Below are positions 402 to 6,441 of a DNA stretch of 20,129 bases, piece by piece. Made by a program: the position numbers and the translations under genes. The notes under the pieces are model-generated. The model had not been told where the DNA came from and made no database searches. It saw nothing but the letters and a program-made list of their open reading frames with translations. Within the stretch, counting starts at the first letter, position 1. Each line of letters begins with the position of its first letter. This DNA is from a virus. The stretch lies in the IMG/VR virus record IMGVR_UViG_3300020472_000216, positions 1 to 20,129 of that record; one strand, given 5' to 3'.

Positions 402-445
402 AAGTGCACACATTTTCCCCATTTGGTTGAAATCTCGTGTATATT
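402..445 (+). promoter_or_regulatory. Promoter A: upstream element AAGTGCACAC and -10 TATATT
   Basis: AAGTGCACAC at 402-411 lies exactly 38 bp before the hexamer TATATT (440-445). There is no TTGACA at the normal -35 distance; a CCCC tract sits there instead. The same arrangement recurs at 2161, 3164, 1076, 840 and 5103. The last 17 bases, AAATCTCGTGTATATTA, match those of promoter B at 16 of 17 positions. It lies just after the methyltransferase stop and would serve the gene at 532 after a leader of about 80 nt. Confidence 0.5.
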
Positions 446-447
446 AT

Positions 448-507
448 AAGAGTGGAAGGAATTGAGGCAATACCCGCAAGGGACACTGACCCAACGCTTC
501 CACACTT
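448..507 (+). promoter_or_regulatory. Structured leader: long stem enclosing a GCAA tetraloop hairpin
   Basis: AAGAGTGGAAG (448-458) pairs with CTTCCACACTT (497-507), 10 of 11 positions, with one A-A mismatch. Inside it, CCC-GCAA-GGG (473-482) forms a short GNRA-capped hairpin. The element sits in the 5' leader of the gene at 532. It does not match the cyanobacterial glutamine riboswitch or other families I could recall, so its role is unknown. It could be a stabilising 5' structure, a small RNA or a regulator. Confidence 0.4.
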
Positions 508-531
508 ATTCACTTTACTAACTGTCACACT

Positions 532-837
532 ATGCCAGCAGCGACTTCTACACCTCGTAAGACTCGCACTCGTAAACCAAAAGCGACCGCTACAGTTGCT
601 AAATACTCACCAAAAGCACCTGTGGAGGATGTGAAAGTGGCACAACCAAAAGTTGATTTGATCTCACGTGAACAATATATTGCTGATGCAAAGGCAAGAT
701 GGAGCATTCACCAGTATGAGGTTCAGGAACTCTGGAAAGATCTCCAAGTAGTCGGTAAATGGATTGTCACACACTCCAAGACTGCCTACGAGTATTCCAA
801 GAAATCATACGACCGAGCATTCAATCAAACCACTTGA
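532..837 (+). CDS. Small protein with a Lys/Arg/Pro/Thr-rich basic N-terminus, unknown function
   Basis: A 101-aa protein starting at ATG 532. Residues 1-30 are a basic, alanine/threonine/proline-rich tail (RKTRTRKPKA) resembling histone-tail or AT-hook-like nucleic-acid binding segments. Residues about 45-95 look like a small helical domain rich in Tyr, Trp and Lys. There is no strong Shine-Dalgarno; AACTGTCACAC directly precedes the ATG. The gene sits alone between promoter A with its structured leader and a strong intrinsic terminator, so it is probably a monocistronic unit. Binding to DNA or RNA is inferred only from composition, and I do not recognise a named family. Confidence 0.75.
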   Translation: MPAATSTPRKTRTRKPKATATVAKYSPKAPVEDVKVAQPKVDLISREQYIADAKARWSIHQYEVQELWKDLQVVGKWIVTHSKTAYEYSKKSYDRAFNQTT

Positions 838-839
838 GG

Positions 840-884
840 AAGTGTCACACAACCGCCCTTCGGGGCGGTTTTTTTGTGTATAAT
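840..884 (+). promoter_or_regulatory. Promoter C: upstream element AAGTGTCACA and -10 TATAAT
   Basis: AAGTGTCACA at 840-849 precedes TATAAT (879-884) by 39 bp. The intrinsic terminator of the previous gene fills the space between them, so termination and re-initiation share one 45-bp stretch. Transcription would start near 891, leaving a leader of about 20 nt before the ATG at 911. Confidence 0.55.
851..875 (+). terminator. Intrinsic terminator with TTCG tetraloop
   Basis: AACCGCCC (851-858) pairs perfectly with GGGCGGTT (863-870) around a TTCG loop, followed by a T run through 875. This is a textbook Rho-independent terminator for the gene ending at 837. Confidence 0.93.
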
Positions 885-894
885 GGTATTATAC
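878..894 (+). repeat. Perfect palindrome GTATAATGGTATTATAC over the -10 box
   Basis: Seven-base arms, GTATAAT and ATTATAC, flank GGT. It includes the TATAAT of promoter C, and it also reads TATAAT on the opposite strand. It could be an operator at the start site or a bidirectional -10 region. Confidence 0.5.
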
Positions 895-910
895 AAACGA
901 ATTTAAAATT

Positions 911-1072
911 ATGAGATATTCTGTCCACTGTCCATCCGCACCCTATGAAAATTCATCATTTGTAACACTTGATGAGTGTTGGGGTTTATGCCTAGACCTA
1001 TCTGAAGAGTATGGATATGCTGAGGTAAGATATGGTGCTTGCGTGATGGGATCATACACCAATGGACAGTGA
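911..1072 (+). CDS. Short Cys/Tyr-containing protein, unknown
   Basis: A 53-aa ORF from ATG 911 to TGA 1070-1072. It contains four cysteines (in HCPSAP, DECW, LCLDL and GACV) and a generally acidic centre. No transmembrane segment or known motif is seen. Support for it being real comes from context: it lies exactly between a promoter (-10 at 879-884) and an intrinsic terminator whose stem overlaps its stop codon. No clear Shine-Dalgarno precedes the start. Its function is not recognised. Confidence 0.6.
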   Translation: MRYSVHCPSAPYENSSFVTLDECWGLCLDLSEEYGYAEVRYGACVMGSYTNGQ

Positions 1073-1090
1073 GCAAACTGTCCATTTTTT
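1061..1090 (+). terminator. Intrinsic terminator overlapping a stop codon and a promoter
   Basis: AATGGACAGT (1061-1070) and ACTGTCCATT (1077-1086) form a perfect 10-bp stem with a GAGCAA loop, followed by T's to 1090. The 5' arm runs into the TGA of the upstream gene. The 3' arm overlaps the upstream element of the next promoter. Confidence 0.9.
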
Positions 1091-1119
1091 ATTGAAACCT
1101 GACCCAAATCGACTATAAT
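1076..1119 (+). promoter_or_regulatory. Promoter E: AACTGTCCAT element, -35 TTGAAA, -10 TATAAT
   Basis: TTGAAA (1092-1097) and TATAAT (1114-1119) are separated by 16 bp, a good sigma-70-type promoter. AACTGTCCAT at 1076-1085 lies 38 bp before the -10, the same spacing as promoters A, B and D. The expected start is about 1125-1127, essentially at the ATG at 1126, so the message may be leaderless. Confidence 0.75.
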
Positions 1120-1125
1120 AACAGT

Positions 1126-1281
1126 ATGAACAAAACAATCACACTTTCCGATCAACAGCATTCACTCCTAGTGGATCTCTTCTCTTCAATCGCAGACCTT
1201 GACCTTCAAGAGCACTGTGATGATTCAAGCGAGTTTGATGCACTATGGGATGCAGTGATCGAAGCAAAGGAGGTCGCTTAA
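1126..1281 (+). CDS. Small acidic protein, unknown
   Basis: A 51-aa acidic ORF starting at ATG 1126 and ending with KEVA-stop. The ATG falls where the promoter at 1092-1119 should begin transcription, and there is no Shine-Dalgarno, so translation from a leaderless message is likely. It heads a five-gene run (1126-2206) with junctions of 0-5 nt, so it is probably the first gene of an operon. The C-terminal codons AAG GAG GTC double as the ribosome-binding site of the next gene. No family is recognised. Confidence 0.65.
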   Translation: MNKTITLSDQQHSLLVDLFSSIADLDLQEHCDDSSEFDALWDAVIEAKEVA

Positions 1282-1285
1282 ATGA
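1267..1285 (+). repeat. Gene-junction repeat, copy 1 (SD-stop-start)
   Basis: The 19-bp sequence AAGGAGGTCGCTTAAATGA is identical to that at 1832-1850. Both copies encode KEV-A-stop of one gene and the Shine-Dalgarno plus ATG of the next. Confidence 0.85.
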
Positions 1286-1407
1286 GTTGCCTTCGAAATG
1301 AAATGATCCTTGAGACACTCTGGGAAGAGGTCTGTGAGGAGTATCCAACACTCTCTCCAGAAGCGAGAGAGAAAATCTGTTATCAACGCTTTGAGGATTT
1401 ATCCTAA
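1282..1407 (+). CDS. Very small protein, unknown
   Basis: A 41-aa ORF whose ATG follows the preceding stop with no gap. A full-strength Shine-Dalgarno, AAGGAGG (1267-1273), lies inside the upstream gene. Its stop overlaps the next start by one base (TAATG at 1405-1409). Composition is Glu-rich with two or three cysteines. The tight coupling at both ends is the main support; the function is unknown. Confidence 0.6.
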   Translation: MSCLRNEMILETLWEEVCEEYPTLSPEAREKICYQRFEDLS

Positions 1408-1610
1408 TGATTGTAAACTTTTCCTGTCGAATTGTTTGTGATGATGAAGGGGTAAATCCTCTTCATTTATGTGAAGAAATTCAATGCTATTTGAATTCTA
1501 ATCATCACTTACTAGACGAAACTGATGAGTCTTATATTAATGCTAAGGTCCTAAGTTACAGGTTAGAAGTTGATAAACAACTCGCATTCTTTGCAGCGGA
1601 GGAGTATTAA
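1407..1610 (+). CDS. Small acidic protein, unknown
   Basis: A 67-aa ORF starting at the A of the previous TAA (TAATG overlap, translational coupling). It has Cys at three positions (FSCRIVC, HLCEEI, IQCYL) and an acidic, helix-prone second half. Its final codons, GCG GAG GAG, provide the Shine-Dalgarno for the gene at 1616. No known motif is seen; it is a member of the small-gene operon at 1126-2206. Confidence 0.65.
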   Translation: MIVNFSCRIVCDDEGVNPLHLCEEIQCYLNSNHHLLDETDESYINAKVLSYRLEVDKQLAFFAAEEY

Positions 1611-1615
1611 ACACT

Positions 1616-1846
1616 ATGTTTCTAAGTAACAAACTAGGCAGACACTTTTGGGTTGATGATGAATATGAACTCAGAAGTTGCCCATCATTTGTAGATAATA
1701 CAGGTGATTTTGACAATGCTGATTATGTATCAGACTGGGATGATTACACTGATGTTGATGTTAGTTACCTACTCAACATTTACAAGTCTGAAATACATAA
1801 CAAATTAAATTACGCTGGTTCACTATCATTCAAGGAGGTCGCTTAA
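1616..1846 (+). CDS. Small acidic Asp/Tyr-rich protein, unknown
   Basis: A 76-aa ORF, 5 nt after the previous stop, with GGAGGAG as ribosome-binding site. The middle (about residues 26-48) is very rich in Asp with aromatic residues (FDNADYVSDWDDYTDVDVSY), a composition seen in DNA-mimic-like or host-takeover phage proteins; this is only a resemblance. The C-terminus SFKEVA ends with the same AAGGAGGTCGCTTAA as the gene ending at 1281. Confidence 0.65.
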   Translation: MFLSNKLGRHFWVDDEYELRSCPSFVDNTGDFDNADYVSDWDDYTDVDVSYLLNIYKSEIHNKLNYAGSLSFKEVA

Positions 1847-1850
1847 ATGA
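1832..1850 (+). repeat. Gene-junction repeat, copy 2
   Basis: Identical over 19 bp to 1267-1285. It again joins two small genes with zero spacing and supplies a full-strength ribosome-binding site inside the upstream C-terminus. Confidence 0.85.
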
Positions 1851-2017
1851 AAACTTATCAAGTTGAATGTATGGAAGTAACAACTTTCATAGTAGAAGTT
1901 GAAGCAGAAAATGAAGATCAAGCACGTGAACTTGTCAACGAAGATGTTAACAAGTATGAGGTAATTAATGAAGAGGTTAGTGACTGGGAAATCAATCTAA
2001 TTGAGGAGGTTGTATAA
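1847..2017 (+). CDS. Small acidic protein with DpnD/PcfM-like pattern
   Basis: A 56-aa ORF directly abutting the previous stop. The pattern YQVECMEVTTFIVEVEAENEDQARELV, two beta strands followed by a helix starting at AENEDQAREL, resembles the small DpnD/PcfM-type fold found in phages and plasmids. The resemblance is by eye and weak. The C-terminus EEVV is encoded by GAG GAG GTT, which is the ribosome-binding site for the next gene. Its function is unknown. Confidence 0.6.
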   Translation: MKTYQVECMEVTTFIVEVEAENEDQARELVNEDVNKYEVINEEVSDWEINLIEEVV

Positions 2018-2020
2018 ACA

Positions 2021-2206
2021 ATGAGATTGATATTAGTCTCCATTGTTGTATTAATTGGTGTCAATCTTGGACACAATGTAATACAAACTCAATATGAATT
2101 ACAAGAACGTAAGTTACAACAATGGTGTGAGATTGACAAGTCTTATTGTGCCACTACTGAAAGTGTCCACAATTCCCCCACTGACCTTAAATCTGGTGTA
2201 TATTAA
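2021..2206 (+). CDS. Small single-pass membrane protein
   Basis: A 61-aa ORF, 3 nt after the previous stop, with GGAGGT upstream. Residues 2-16 (RLILVSIVVLIGVNL) form a hydrophobic N-terminal segment, either an uncleaved membrane anchor or a signal peptide. It is followed by a polar, Gln/Glu-rich helical stretch with two cysteines (WCEIDKSYC). It probably sits in the host inner membrane. The second half of the gene contains promoter B for the nuclease gene that follows. Confidence 0.65.
   Translation: MRLILVSIVVLIGVNLGHNVIQTQYELQERKLQQWCEIDKSYCATTESVHNSPTDLKSGVY
2161..2204 (+). promoter_or_regulatory. Promoter B: AAGTGTCCAC element and -10 TATATT
   Basis: AAGTGTCCAC (2161-2170) lies 38 bp before TATATT (2199-2204). 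The -10 region matches promoter A at 16 of 17 bases. There is no TTGACA. The expected start is at 2209-2213, on or just after the ATG at 2209, so the message is leaderless or translation starts at the in-frame ATG at 2230. Confidence 0.5.
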
Positions 2207-2208
2207 CA

Positions 2209-2754
2209 ATGACCACAACACAGTCACAGATGCTTATCATCACTCCAGAAATGAAACCTGAAGAAAAGTATCAACAACTGTTTGAACAAATGTATTCACT
2301 TTGTGAGGCAAATAACTGGGGTGATCCTTTCAGTTATGCACGCAGCAGAGAGATACATTTAGCAGGGATACTTGGGCACCGAGTTAGTGATACTTTATCA
2401 GGTGCAGATGCTTATGACAGTGATAACAATCCTGTCGAATATAAGAGCACTATTGGTAAGAAACTAACCGCAACATACAATGGAATTAGTGTTCAGAACT
2501 CGTGGGAAGACCAATTAACATATTTGAAGGAAGATAAGATCGGTAAGTATAAAGATCACTTCTTTGCTCGTTATCACTTAGGCAAGGTAGTTGAGGTCTA
2601 CAAAATGTCATCAACTGATGTACTTGCAATCTTAATTCCTAACCTGAAGAGACAATTCTTCAGCAAAAATGTTAAGAAAGATCCCAGACTTGGTTACACT
2701 ATTTCTAACAAACTCATCAAACAATTCGGAGTCAAAGTTAATGTCAAATCCTGA
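2209..2754 (+). CDS. PD-(D/E)XK-type nuclease, restriction-endonuclease-like (candidate)
   Basis: A 181-aa protein. A helix with Glu49 (SREIHLAGILG) leads to GAD-AYD and then VEYKST. This places Asp67 ten residues before Glu77-x-Lys79, the classic PD-(D/E)XK metal-dependent nuclease pattern of many type II restriction enzymes and of some homing endonucleases. The length fits a single-domain restriction enzyme. A DNA methyltransferase ends at 399, so the two may form a restriction-modification pair split by small genes; alternatively this enzyme degrades host DNA that lacks the phage's methylation. The start is uncertain: the promoter falls so close that either a leaderless ATG at 2209 or ATG 2230 could be used. 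The family is inferred from spacing and residues only. Confidence 0.6.
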   Translation: MTTTQSQMLIITPEMKPEEKYQQLFEQMYSLCEANNWGDPFSYARSREIHLAGILGHRVSDTLSGADAYDSDNNPVEYKSTIGKKLTATYNGISVQNSWEDQLTYLKEDKIGKYKDHFFARYHLGKVVEVYKMSSTDVLAILIPNLKRQFFSKNVKKDPRLGYTISNKLIKQFGVKVNVKS

Positions 2755-2953
2755 AACTCTCTCACCTGATAGAGAAGAATCTATCAATCTTCTTGCCAAT
2801 AATTATTATGACAAGATGAAAGTTCACGTAGATTTTGGTAACCCAAAAGACGCAGAATGCCTCTATGATGAGTTTATTGTGGATGGAATTGACCCTGAAG
2901 ATGGTGATTATGTATGGTGTTTTCTAAATGATTTAACTCAATTAGAAGACTAA
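2741..2953 (+). CDS. Small acidic protein, unknown
   Basis: A 70-aa ORF starting at ATG 2741, overlapping the nuclease gene by 14 nt. It is strongly acidic (DREES, DGIDPEDGDY, QLED). The start at 2741 is preferred over upstream in-frame codons because those lie deep inside the nuclease gene. An acidic partner overlapping a nuclease gene could be an inhibitor or regulator of it, but nothing else supports that. No family is recognised. Confidence 0.6.
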   Translation: MSNPETLSPDREESINLLANNYYDKMKVHVDFGNPKDAECLYDEFIVDGIDPEDGDYVWCFLNDLTQLED

Positions 2954-2998
2954 TTACAGTCCTTAAGTAAGACTTTAAACTGCTTACATTGTCCCACT

Positions 2999-3015
2999 TA
3001 ATTATCAATCAAATG
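2999..3015 (+). repeat. SD-less start-region repeat, copy 1 (TAATTATCAATCAAATG)
   Basis: Matches 3565-3581 at 16 of 17 bases, ending in the ATG of a tiny gene in both cases. There is no Shine-Dalgarno in either copy. Confidence 0.6.
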
Positions 3016-3126
3016 GCAGAATCCATTCTTGAAAACAACAACTACCTCGTCAATCTGTTCGAGGAATGTGTTAACGGCAATGAGATACTTGAGTTGTTAG
3101 ATGAACTCTTTCAAGACTACAACTAA
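3013..3126 (+). CDS. Very small acidic protein, unknown
   Basis: A 37-aa ORF at ATG 3013, acidic and leucine-rich (NLFEEC, EILELLDELFQDY), probably one amphipathic helix. It is preceded by TAATTATCAATCAAATG, nearly identical to the leader of the gene at 3579, and is followed by tandem hairpins and a terminator. The conserved start context suggests real translation, but its size leaves doubt. Confidence 0.5.
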   Translation: MAESILENNNYLVNLFEECVNGNEILELLDELFQDYN

Positions 3127-3152
3127 CACCACTAAGTATCAACAATTAGTAT

Positions 3153-3170
3153 GACACTCTCCAAAGTGTC
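3153..3170 (+). repeat. Hairpin upstream of terminator
   Basis: GACACT (3153-3158) and AGTGTC (3165-3170) form a perfect 6-bp stem with a 6-nt loop. The 3' arm overlaps the promoter element at 3164. It sits just before the terminator hairpin, making a tandem pair. Confidence 0.5.
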
Positions 3171-3207
3171 CACCAATGCCCCCACGAGGGGCATTTTCTG
3201 TTATTAT
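3164..3207 (+). promoter_or_regulatory. Promoter D: AAGTGTCCAC element and -10 TATTAT
   Basis: AAGTGTCCAC (3164-3173) is exactly 38 bp before TATTAT (3202-3207). Downstream bases ATAAGAG are the same as in promoter A. The expected start is near 3214, about 20 nt before the ATG at 3234. Confidence 0.5.
3175..3197 (+). terminator. Intrinsic terminator
   Basis: AATGCCCC (3175-3182) pairs with GGGGCATT (3188-3195) around CACGA, ending in TTTT. It lies wholly inside the space between promoter D's upstream element and its -10 box. Confidence 0.85.
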
Positions 3208-3233
3208 ATAAGAGTCAAACAAATAAAGGACTT

Positions 3234-3554
3234 ATGAGAAAGATTGAATCCCAAATGAACTCTGCAATCAGAGCACGCCGTAACTGGACATCTGGGAACA
3301 CAAGTGTTGTTATTGATGACCAAAATGACGCTCTTGTTTATCTTCACGGCAATTTTATTGCTAAGATAAGTGATAGATTTGTAAGACTATTTGACGGCGG
3401 ATGGCAATCAGTGACCACAAAATCACGCCTTAATGCTCTATTAGATGAGTTCCATTATGGATCTAGAGTATTTCAAAGAGATTTTAATTGGTTCGTTGGT
3501 TTACAAATAGGCGGACAATTACCATTCTATTCAGGTATAGAATTAAACCACTAA
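3234..3554 (+). CDS. Hypothetical protein, 106 aa
   Basis: Starts at ATG 3234 after AAAGGA, a good ribosome-binding site. The protein is basic at the N-terminus (MRKIESQMNSAIRARRNW), followed by a beta-rich middle with repeated hydrophobic strands (TSVVIDD, ALVYLHGNFIAKI, RFVRLFDGGWQSVTT) and a helix (SRLNALLDEF). It resembles conserved small cyanophage proteins, but I cannot name a family. It has its own promoter (D) and lies directly after a terminator, so it is a separate unit, possibly transcribed through the small genes to 3854. Confidence 0.75.
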   Translation: MRKIESQMNSAIRARRNWTSGNTSVVIDDQNDALVYLHGNFIAKISDRFVRLFDGGWQSVTTKSRLNALLDEFHYGSRVFQRDFNWFVGLQIGGQLPFYSGIELNH

Positions 3555-3564
3555 TCGTTCACCC

Positions 3565-3581
3565 TAATTATCAACCAAATG
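3565..3581 (+). repeat. SD-less start-region repeat, copy 2 (TAATTATCAACCAAATG)
   Basis: Matches 2999-3015 with one difference. It ends in the ATG of the small gene at 3579. Confidence 0.6.
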
Positions 3582-3722
3582 TCACAAACTATCGACATCT
3601 ACGATTCACTAACAAATGATGAATTGCAAACAGTTACTAACATTTTCCTTGAAGCATTATCAAGGAGACGATTACAACCACCTGAAGTATTTGAAATCGT
3701 AACTAACATCATCATTGACTGA
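3579..3722 (+). CDS. Very small acidic protein, unknown
   Basis: A 47-aa ORF at ATG 3579 with two predicted helices (TNDELQTVTNIFLEALSRRRL and PPEVFEIVTNIII). Its leader repeats that of the gene at 3013. No Shine-Dalgarno is present. It lies 24 nt after the 106-aa gene and is likely co-transcribed with it. The function is unknown. Confidence 0.5.
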   Translation: MSQTIDIYDSLTNDELQTVTNIFLEALSRRRLQPPEVFEIVTNIIID

Positions 3723-3737
3723 ATCATCCATCCTAAA

Positions 3738-3854
3738 ATGTCATCCAAAACTTACAAAATGTCACAAGAAGTTTACAAACAACTCTGCAATCCTACTCCA
3801 GTTATTAAGTATTACTTTCTAACAAATTGGCAACCTAGGAAGAAAACAACTTGA
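3738..3854 (+). CDS. Very small basic protein, unknown
   Basis: A 38-aa ORF at ATG 3738 (an alternative ATG lies at 3759). It is basic with a Lys-rich C-terminus (QPRKKTT). Its TGA overlaps the TTGACA -35 box of the next promoter. There is no strong start signal, so it is plausible but weakly supported. Confidence 0.35.
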   Translation: MSSKTYKMSQEVYKQLCNPTPVIKYYFLTNWQPRKKTT

Positions 3855-3880
3855 CAAGGTATCAATCCTTGCTATATAAT
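3851..3880 (+). promoter_or_regulatory. Promoter F: consensus sigma-70, TTGACA-18-TATAAT
   Basis: TTGACA at 3851-3856 and TATAAT at 3875-3880 match the consensus perfectly with an 18-bp spacer. This promoter lacks the AAGTGT element, consistent with its full -35. Transcription would start near 3887 and read the gene at 3922. Confidence 0.85.
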
Positions 3881-3907
3881 GAGGGGAGTAAATAACCCCT
3901 CTTTTTT
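3881..3907 (+). terminator. Intrinsic terminator nested over a transcription start
   Basis: GAGGGG (3881-3886) pairs with CCCCTC (3896-3901), followed by six T's. Incoming transcripts would terminate here. A transcript starting near 3887 lacks the 5' arm and so escapes. Confidence 0.75.
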
Positions 3908-3921
3908 ATTACTAACTCGTT

Positions 3922-4569
3922 ATGCCTGAAGATAACATTTTATCCGACAATTTAGAGTCAGTTGCTAACACAAACGTGTATGGTATGTTTATGACACCTG
4001 TGGGCGTACATTCGCTTACTAATCATAAACAACATAAGCAAACAATTCTTGACTATATTGCCGCCTTATCTCCTGATGATGTTAAACAATCACCCCGAAA
4101 AGATATTAATAGTGGCGTGCTGCAATTAGGTGCCTTAAATGTACTTAACCTTGAACAGTTCGTATCACTTAAATCAGACATATTACAGGGCATTGTAGAC
4201 ATCAATAGTAAAGCACTATGTTATGAATTGGGTGACAATCCTAATCTAATTGATTCACATTTAGAACTAGGAAATGAAGGGAGTTTGTATGCACCACACG
4301 AGCAAAGTAATTGCCTCTATAGTGGAACTTATTTTGTAAATTGGAACGCTAATGAACATTCTCCCCTGAAATTTAAAAGGGATGTATCATCAACTCATTA
4401 CCCCGTTATTCAATACAATCAAACACAGATTACACCCTTCAATATGTTAGATGGAATCGTACCAATTACAGAAGGTGAGATATGTTTATATCCTGCTAAT
4501 TTGACTCGTGGGTATGAACCAAACACCAAAGGTAATAGAATTACGATAACATTTAACGTTGCACTTTGA
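3922..4569 (+). CDS. 2OG-Fe(II) oxygenase-like protein with degenerate metal site
   Basis: A 215-aa protein with the layout of the TIGR02466-type phage 2OG-Fe(II) oxygenases. A segment APHEQSNCLYSGTYFVNW (about 124-141) aligns with the usual HxHxxSxxSGxYYV, then EGEICLYPANLTRGYEPN (184-201), and finally RITITFN (206-212). In the family, iron is held by two histidines of the first motif and one histidine after the 'YP/FP' strand. Here His126 is kept, but the second position is Gln128 and the distal position is Arg196. Two of three ligands appear missing, so it may be catalytically dead or use another chemistry. Arg206 could still bind 2-oxoglutarate. It is driven by promoter F and followed directly by an HNH gene. 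Confidence 0.65.
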   Translation: MPEDNILSDNLESVANTNVYGMFMTPVGVHSLTNHKQHKQTILDYIAALSPDDVKQSPRKDINSGVLQLGALNVLNLEQFVSLKSDILQGIVDINSKALCYELGDNPNLIDSHLELGNEGSLYAPHEQSNCLYSGTYFVNWNANEHSPLKFKRDVSSTHYPVIQYNQTQITPFNMLDGIVPITEGEICLYPANLTRGYEPNTKGNRITITFNVAL

Positions 4570-4584
4570 CCCCCCTTAAGTATT

Positions 4585-4914
4585 ATGAACCCATTCAAAA
4601 AGATTAATGATAATACCTATCAAGATGATGCAGGTATTTTATACAAACCTATCCCTAATTACGAGGACTATTTTGTATCTAACGAAGGACAGATATATTC
4701 AACTAAGTGGGGTAAATGGAAGAAATTAAAGATACATTTAAATGAAAATGGATATAGACGTGTTACTTTGCGACAAAATGGTAAAACAGTTGTTAGACGT
4801 TGTGCACGATTGTGTGCCCTTGCTTATCATCCAGGCGGAACAGATTCGCAGAACGTTATTCACATTGACAAAGACAAATTGAATGACCAAAGTAATAACC
4901 TAAAATGGGTATGA
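4585..4914 (+). CDS. HNH homing endonuclease with NUMOD4-like domain
   Basis: A 109-aa protein. Residues about 20-47 (PIPNYEDYFVSNEGQIYSTK) match the NUMOD4 DNA-binding motif, and GYRRVTLRQNGK forms the following strands. The C-terminal VIHIDKDKLNDQSNNLKWV is the HNH core (HiDxdkxNN..NLxW). The protein stops right after NLKWV, where relatives continue with a few more residues carrying the last catalytic Asn/His, so it may be slightly truncated. No Shine-Dalgarno precedes the ATG, typical for free-standing homing genes. It would nick or cut cognate alleles of competing phages and spread with its flanking DNA. It directly follows the oxygenase-like gene. Confidence 0.82.
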   Translation: MNPFKKINDNTYQDDAGILYKPIPNYEDYFVSNEGQIYSTKWGKWKKLKIHLNENGYRRVTLRQNGKTVVRRCARLCALAYHPGGTDSQNVIHIDKDKLNDQSNNLKWV

Positions 4915-5189
4915 GTTAGTGATAGTTTTCCACAATTATTCCACAGTTAAGTATATTTTCTGTGGATAAATAAATGGTTAATTAAACATACTTAAGCGTT
5001 CTATCTTTAGAGTCATAAGTGTTATAAACCCACGGAGGAATAGCGACCTTAATAGACTATATAAGAACAGAACAGTTGTCAACACTTAGGAGACACTACA
5101 GAAACTGTTACAAACCCCTTGACGTTTTCCACAGATTCGTTTATAATTAAGGGGTAAACACTAACTAACACATAGCGGTACTATTACCA
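4915..5189 (+). other. AT-rich intergenic region with a cluster of DnaA-box-like sites
   Basis: This 275-bp gap has no convincing ORF. It contains TTTTCCACA at 4926-4934, TATTCCACA at 4937-4945, TGTGGATAA at 4961-4969 (the exact reverse complement of TTATCCACA), and TTTTCCACA at 5125-5133. As I recall, TTTTCCACA is the DnaA-box form used by cyanobacteria, and TTATCCACA is the E. coli consensus. GATAAATA (4965-4972), which resembles the T4 late promoter box, overlaps the third site. A promoter closes the region. Confidence 0.6.
5103..5147 (+). promoter_or_regulatory. Promoter G: TTGACG-17-TATAAT with DnaA box in the spacer
   Basis: TTGACG (5119-5124) and TATAAT (5142-5147) are 17 bp apart, a near-consensus sigma-70 promoter. 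TTTTCCACA (5125-5133) fills the first half of the spacer. AACTGTTACA (5103-5112), a relaxed form of the upstream element, is 39 bp before the -10. The expected start is near 5154; it serves the gene at 5190. Confidence 0.8.
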
Positions 5190-5867: not shown

Positions 5868-6284
5868 ATGACCAAAAAGGTTCGTCAGAGATTGGAAGGA
5901 GAATACTCCCAATGGCTTGGCAGAGAGTGGTCCCGTACGAAGGGTGGAGGTTGCTTCACCCTTCTTTATGATATGGGGAAGGATATCGGATACCACGTCT
6001 GCAAAGAAGACTACAGTTTCACTGCCAGAGAGTTCCTCAAGGATCTGTGGGAAGCAGAAGACTGGTCTGTGCTGAAAACATCAGAGATGGGGGAAGTGTT
6101 TGACCTAGACGATCTGAATAAATTTGATATTTTGGTGATGAAATTAGATAAACGTTTGAATCACTGCGCTGTATATCTTGGGGAAGGGTATTTGTTACAT
6201 CATAAAGCTTTCGATGTGTCAAGAATAGAATCTGTAGAACAATATATACCAAAGACACTGTATGTTATAAGAAAAAATGCATAG
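5868..6284 (+). CDS. NlpC/P60-family cysteine peptidase (tail-associated endopeptidase-like)
   Basis: A 138-aa protein. Residues 15-40 (QWLGREW, then GGGCFTLLYDMGKDIG) match the start of the NlpC/P60 domain, with Cys29 as nucleophile. LNHCAVYLGEGYLLHH carries His99 and the third triad residue His111. Such proteins cleave peptide cross-links in peptidoglycan; phage lambda tail protein K is a relative. The size is that of a bare catalytic domain. The only obvious start is ATG 5868, preceded by a weak GAG. It heads a compact operon whose next gene overlaps it by 8 nt. Its place upstream of baseplate genes suggests a tail or baseplate enzyme helping DNA entry rather than an endolysin, but lysis cannot be excluded. 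Confidence 0.85.
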   Translation: MTKKVRQRLEGEYSQWLGREWSRTKGGGCFTLLYDMGKDIGYHVCKEDYSFTAREFLKDLWEAEDWSVLKTSEMGEVFDLDDLNKFDILVMKLDKRLNHCAVYLGEGYLLHHKAFDVSRIESVEQYIPKTLYVIRKNA

Positions 6285-6441
6285 ATTCACTACAATTATC
6301 CGAGAGGATGATCATACGGGTGATCTATACGTTATTCTACCAGACTCAGTATTATCTGAAGCAGACTTAATGGTCGGCGATGAGGTAGAATATAGTGTAG
6401 ACAATGAAACCGTACTCTTGGAGAAGTCAAGAAATGACTAA
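6277..6441 (+). CDS. Small AbrB/MazE-like swapped-hairpin protein (candidate)
   Basis: A 54-aa ORF at ATG 6277, overlapping the peptidase gene by 8 nt and the next gene by 8 nt. The pattern LYVILPDSVLSEADLMVGDEVEYSVDNETVLLEKS follows the strand-'lP..ll..l.l..GDeve'-strand order of the AbrB/MazE fold, normally a dimeric DNA-binding domain in regulators and antitoxins. The acidic N-terminus is unlike DNA-binding members, so it could serve another role. No toxin gene is adjacent. Confidence 0.6.
   Translation: MHRFTTIIREDDHTGDLYVILPDSVLSEADLMVGDEVEYSVDNETVLLEKSRND

Follow-up and report, generated by a model that had tools for sequence, protein, structure and literature searches.

A dyad promoter class of T4-like cyanophages: six putative early promoters in an IMG/VR virus record

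Background

The MotA box of phage T4 is centred near -30. According to Doron et al. 2016 (ISME J 10:1437), a novel regulatory element reportedly controls early-gene transcription in the cyanophage Syn9, P-TIM40 being alike in this and the element conserved in T4-like cyanophages. Here we analyse a 20,129-base virus record of a T4-like cyanophage (IMGVR_UViG_3300020472_000216; the whole stretch is called the window below), in which a 20-bp inverted repeat, or dyad, recurs six times at a fixed distance upstream of a -10 box. These six sites are very probably early-type promoters of T4-like cyanophages, each consisting of the dyad, a spacer, a sigma-70 -10 box, a YA(T) initiator and, as a rule, some 18 nt of leader, and most likely served by a dimeric activator. 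Cyanomyoviruses are without motA and asiA homologs (PMC2984593), and for a long time their early promoters were taken to be host-like (PMC2984593; PMC5780444). Promoters of the sigma-70, T4 late, Pho and NtcA types had been predicted in cyanophages by previous comparative work (PMC3037559). The hosts of T4-like cyanophages are the ocean's most abundant photosynthetic cells, yet these phages are without the known early and middle switches of T4. A precise definition of the promoter class, in terms of dyad, spacing, initiator and lineage limit, would make the early regulon predictable in any cyanophage contig and would help to find the factor that reads it.

Architecture of the six sites

A preliminary description of the window had reported the sequence AASTGNNNNN at six places, each 38 or 39 bp before a -10 box, and all of its coordinates and distances are correct. 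The box is TATATT at +38 of 402, TATAAT at +39 of 840, TATAAT at +38 of 1076, TATATT at +38 of 2161, TATTAT at +38 of 3164 and TATAAT at +39 of 5103, within the 38-40 bp from the right-arm start that characterize the class. The refined element is the inverted repeat TGMCASTT-N4-AASTGKCA, 20 bp in length and followed by C-rich sequence. A left arm GMCAST and a right arm AASTGKC around a 4-bp centre were found at all six sites, the left arms, 11 bp upstream of the right arm, being GACAGT (402), ACCACT (840), GACAGT (1076), GCCACT (2161), GACACT (3164) and GACACT (5103). If transcription begins 12 nt downstream of the first -10 base, the dyad covers about -62 to -43 and has its centre near -53. 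The element had been placed at about -50 to -41, since only its right half was noticed; the full dyad is twice as long.

Site 1, TGACAGTT GACA AAGTGCAC, occupies 390-409 (17.4 bits by position weight matrix (PWM), 26.4 with the -10 box; this and the following sites are on the plus strand), with TATATT at 440-445 and alternative -10 boxes at +40 and +43 of 402 (positions 442 and 445). Site 2, AACCACTT GAGG AAGTGTCA at 828-847 (21.9 bits, 33.6 in total), is followed by TATAAT at 879-884, and site 3, GGACAGTG AGCA AACTGTCC at 1064-1083 (19.5 bits, 35.5 in total), by TATAAT at 1114-1119. Site 4, TGCCACTA CTGA AAGTGTCC at 2149-2168 (23.6 bits, 30.2 in total), has its TATATT at 2199-2204, and site 5, TGACACTC TCCA AAGTGTCC at 3152-3171 (24.7 bits, 35.4 in total), its TATTAT at 3202-3207. 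At site 6, AGACACTA CAGA AACTGTTA at 5091-5110 (14.8 bits, 24.3 in total), a -35/-10 pair TTGACG-17-TATAAT was read in the sequence at 5119-5147. Position check and PWM agree on the spacing of 38 or 39 bp at all six sites.

Outside the window the layout is the same: dyad, 26-28 bp spacer, TATAAT, initiator and A-rich leader. The seed used to collect sites fixed the right arm and the -10 box only, and the left arm emerged unselected, with C at -9 in 85-96% and A at -8 in 79-85% of sites. The seeded sites also showed, again unselected, a Y-A-T that is conserved at +11 to +13 relative to the -10 box. The -10 box carries a TG extension in 24-32% of sites, and the first ATG lies 15-25 nt past the predicted start in 66% of IMG/VR sites, compared to about 9% in shuffled sequence.

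The preliminary description had further held that four of the six sites are without TTGACA. Weak -35 boxes are indeed common, and four window sites have at most three matches to it; the statement was nevertheless too strong, as the other two have five of six matches at 16-18 bp, namely TTGAAA at 1076 (16 bp upstream of the -10 box) and TTGACG at 5103 (17 bp). Among all sites, a -35 box with at least four of six bases is found in 31-35%, versus 9-10% of shuffled spacers. This suggests that the element supplements the -35 box and does not always replace it.

At site 402 the leader of the predicted transcript (452-531) is unusually long, about 80 nt, and contains GTGGAAG...CTTCCAC as a long-range stem (89 nt, -20.8 kcal/mol). 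An Rfam scan of the window, this leader included, gave no family match.

Comparison to shuffled and reversed sequence

We trained a two-part profile (element and -10 box) on independent IMG/VR loci, with no 24-mer of the window in the training set. As these loci had been fetched with the motif of the preliminary description, only the window, the reference genomes and the control loci count as unbiased tests. The profile found exactly six elements in the window, the same six, with 24.3-35.5 bits including the -10 box. Their element-only scores are 14.8-24.7 bits, each site having two or three mismatches to the 20-bp dyad. First-order shuffled windows gave a mean of 0.045 matches at 12 bits, and the reversed window gave zero. 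The expectation that the pattern would be commoner than in shuffled sequence was thus borne out, and it held in related cyanophages also, ten T4-like or related genomes together having 158 matches compared to 10 when reversed.

An IMG/VR scan for AAGTGTCCAC-N25..31-TATAAT returned at least 120 stretches, and among the matches listed the gap between AAGTGTCCAC and TATAAT was 28 or 29 in 110 of 129 pairs. In the complete control scan with the element read backwards, 117 stretches were found with a flatter gap spread and without a comparable peak, and a complete scan with the wrong gap of 4-10 gave a background-like 62 stretches. In 1.8 Mb of sequence there were 606 profile matches versus 12 in the reversed sequence. 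The six repeated sites are real.

Nested terminators

A GC-rich hairpin with a T tail lies in the spacer at 29% of the IMG/VR sites and at 20% of those from the reference genomes, versus 0.3-0.5% of shuffled spacers. Two spacers of the window are filled by such intrinsic terminators, both on the plus strand: that of 840 at 851-870 (stem-loop AACCGCCCTTCGGGGCGGTT then TTTTT) and that of 3164 at 3175-3195 (stem-loop AATGCCCCCACGAGGGGCATT then TTCTGTTATT). Since 20-29% of sites have a spacer terminator, these account for part of the C-tract that had been described in place of the -35 box. C-rich sequence does follow the dyad, although at 840 and 3164 part of it is terminator sequence. A nested terminator would end upstream transcripts while lying outside the transcript of the promoter itself, as we infer, so that in a fifth to a third of promoters the termination of one unit and the initiation of the next would be joined in about 60 bp.

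We also considered the dyad itself as a terminator. In general this was rejected, a T-rich stretch directly behind the dyad being present in only 3 of 659 sites. Site 1076 is exceptional, for here the dyad forms the stem of a terminator-like hairpin seen in the sequence at 1061-1086 (plus strand).

For contrast, the window has one consensus sigma-70 promoter at 3851-3880 on the plus strand (12/12 match, spacer 18), which had been described as being without the element and indeed has no PWM match. Within 3851-3908 a perfect T-tailed stem (GAGGGG...CCCCTCTTTTTT) follows it directly, and its start site would therefore fall within the terminator stem. Terminator and promoter overlap here too, in this case at a promoter that has no dyad.

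Distribution among phages and genomic placement

Profile matches were obtained in S-PM2 (22), P-SSM2 (22), the freshwater phage S-CRM01 (19), P-SSM4 (18), P-TIM40 (15), P-HM2 (14), S-RSM4 (14), S-SZBM1 (14), Syn9 (12) and S-TIM5 (8). The class is therefore present in every T4-like picocyanobacterial virus tested and in the more divergent S-TIM5. The profile scan gave zero matches in T4, in Ma-LMM01 and in five picocyanobacterial podo- or siphoviruses (P-SSP7, P-SS2, Syn5, S-CBS2 and S-CBS4).

In the positive genomes, sites crowd one 25-kb stretch, with 8-17 sites compared to the 1.2-2.8 expected if they were spread evenly. This stretch is a region of small open reading frames (ORFs), and in most genomes the sites are on one strand. 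The window, whose DNA matches are mostly to Synechococcus and Prochlorococcus phages, has the gene order of a DNA methylase fragment (1-399), small ORFs, and then baseplate genes, gp25-like (12753) and gp6-like (13160). Its sites lie in the small-ORF cluster near the methylase and before gp25/gp6, and Syn9 has the same layout. In the window, P-TIM40 and contig L304 a site stands directly behind the methylase gene. In P-SSM2 a site lies still within dam, close to its 3' end, and in P-SSM4 a short way past the dam match. Among orthologous genes, cobS and a peptidase gene each have the promoter upstream in 7 of 9 phages, a helicase gene has it in 5 of 7, and the orthologs of Syn9 gp90 have it in 5 of 5. 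Such placement before orthologous genes in five to seven phages shows the element to be under selection.

Both genomes of the published early element have dyad promoters crowded into the small-ORF region, with 12 sites in Syn9 and 15 in P-TIM40. On this ground we consider it quite likely that the dyad promoter is the early element of Doron et al. 2016. The remark that the motif was not known as described is accordingly doubtful: a description of the class for Syn9 and P-TIM40 was probably given in 2016, and the window sites are probably members of a promoter class already known. The present analysis documents the dyad symmetry, the nested terminators, the placement before orthologous genes and the absence from hosts.

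A relative of the window, L549 (Marine virus AG-345-O18), has zero dyad promoters in 10.5 kb. It has instead a repeat TCGC[TCA]TAAAGTGTCCTTATAGTGT three times (1215, 3422, 5903), once downstream of the same methylase gene, which is possibly a diverged version of the dyad element.

Two further observations concern the window only. Three DnaA-box-like TTWTCCACA sequences (4926; 4961 on the minus strand; 5125) lie inside 208 bp at 4926-5133; three matches anywhere were reached in 4 of 100 shuffles of the whole window. A tRNA scan of the window found none.

Proposed mechanism and alternatives

What is directly supported for the class is its anatomy at sequence level, its fixed spacing and conservation, its placement, its restriction to a phage lineage and its nested terminators. 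Most likely, the dyad recruits host sigma-70 RNA polymerase via a probably phage-borne dimeric factor. In such a scheme the host polymerase with its main sigma factor would melt the -10 box, a dimeric DNA-binding protein on the dyad would recruit the polymerase and so offset the weak or missing -35 box, and the nested terminator, where present, would halt read-through from the upstream gene. The existence of an activator, its phage origin, the start sites and the early timing (the last through identification with the published Syn9/P-TIM40 element) are inferred. The preliminary description had proposed an activator that replaces -35 contacts. A position-fixed upstream element and weak -35 boxes do indicate an activator; replacement of -35 contacts from -50 to -41 is not supported, as the dyad lies upstream of the -35 position and about a third of sites keep a recognizable -35 box.

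It is conceivable, though somewhat less likely than not, that a phage-borne dimeric activator, either brought in by the virus particle or expressed from the few plain sigma-70 promoters, reads the dyad across T4-like picocyanobacterial viruses. Several points weigh against the proposed scheme. A phage-made activator could serve the earliest transcripts only by coming in with the virus particle. About one third of sites retain at least four of six -35 bases, so that the element may only boost transcription, and the predicted start sites, timing and activation are all indirect conclusions. A search for proteins that all, or almost all, element-bearing phages share and the other phages are without found no clear DNA-binding protein. 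The phrog_385 'transcriptional regulator' is present in 9 of 10 element-bearing phages and is missing in S-TIM5. A weak candidate in the window is a small AbrB/MazE-like protein encoded at 6277-6441 on the plus strand (MazE Pfam E 0.007, below cut-off). It has homologs in 7 of the 10 element-bearing phages tested and zero in element-free phages, and was undetected in P-HM2, S-TIM5 and S-CRM01.

The factor could instead be a host transcription factor that is present at infection and binds the dyad, the phages having collected its operator. This is possible, if rather doubtful. In its favour, early promoters must act before phage proteins exist, and the elements of P-TIM40 and P-SSM4, phages of the same host (NATL2A), are not significantly different (p 0.20). 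However, the dyad with at most one mismatch is not enriched in 201 Cyanobiaceae genomes, where it was found 36 times versus 42 for the backwards pattern. The same criterion selects 43 of 148 (about 29%) reference phage sites, and a regulon of the host should therefore have been visible even at a single good site per genome. The sipho- and podoviruses of picocyanobacteria are also without the dyad, and in 257 Gb of cellular genome contigs the strict promoter pattern has only three matches. The first is on a 189-kb contig of a Prochlorococcus single cell which has phage genes, including the same methylase, and is a cyanomyovirus contig; the other two are on contigs of one metagenomic bin, with many copies, phage-like genes and weak similarity to cyanophage DNA. 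The variation of the element is mixed when host-matched and phage-matched pairs are compared (the above p 0.20 for P-TIM40/P-SSM4, p 0.04 for Syn9/S-PM2) and is not decisive. Lack of host enrichment together with absence from the other picocyanobacterial phages favours a phage-borne factor.

Contigs L305 and L306, filed in a Microbacteriaceae (actinobacterial) bin, have many dyad promoters; L305 alone has eight at +39 within 8 kb. Most probably these are cyanophage contigs that strayed into the bin; otherwise they belong to a phage of another host using the same element. As a host operator we considered the sole palindrome conserved in several Prochlorococcus genomes, and rejected it: it adjoins a RidA-like gene, is a terminator-like hairpin and has no -10 box at the right distance.

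It is unlikely that the dyad is the operator of a repressor that shuts early genes off, possibly the AbrB/MazE-like protein of the same region. The strict spacing to the -10 box and the weak -35 boxes suggest positive contact with polymerase, and three element-bearing phages are without a detectable homolog, although homologs do occur in the same phages and not in element-free ones. AbrB sites have been reported as bipartite TGGNA motifs (PMC11135676), and the likeness of these to the TGKCA half-sites, which would suit a repressor, is a lead only.

Very improbable is a duplicated promoter cassette, raised in the preliminary description, that spread within this phage, the element itself being without function. 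The 402/2161 pair fits it, with identity at 36 of 51 bases overall and at 18 of 26 in the spacer, and is the only pair to do so: other spacers share 2-11 of 26 positions, except 840/3164 (16), both with terminators, while the arms and the -10 box are kept. As a general explanation the cassette is refuted by conservation across phages, the same arrangement standing before orthologous genes in divergent ones. Finally, chance resemblance picked out by reading, for which it might be said that the motif was chosen after the fact and several -10 variants were allowed, is refuted by the independent profile and by the shuffled and reversed controls.

Comparison to known systems

In order to relate the class to described promoters, we scanned the six window sites and 659 others for known motifs. 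The MotA box [AT][AT]TGCTT[TC]A near -30 was found in 0/6 and 2/659 sites, NtcA GTA-N8-TAC in 0/6 and 2/659, the Pho box CTTA-N7-CTTA in 0/6 and 0/659, and the T4-like late promoter TATAAATA in 0/6 and 0/659. These scans rule out MotA, NtcA, Pho and late-promoter identities. The NtcA and Pho promoters predicted in cyanophages are alike in having upstream activator sites (PMC3037559), but their motifs differ. CRP-type class I/II promoters similarly have a dimer-sized inverted repeat upstream of a sigma-70 promoter, but with centres at -41.5 or -61.5, compared to near -53 here, and with a different half-site. The T4 middle promoter (MotA/AsiA) resembles the present class in having an upstream box fixed relative to a sigma-70 -10 box and a weak -35 box. 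The MotA box is however not a 20-bp dyad, and the earlier view of the element as analogous to MotA yet different from it agrees with the scan. If the proposed scheme is true, T4-like cyanophages would take over transcription in a way distinct from Alt/MotA/AsiA of T4, with a terminator packed between the activator site and the -10 box.

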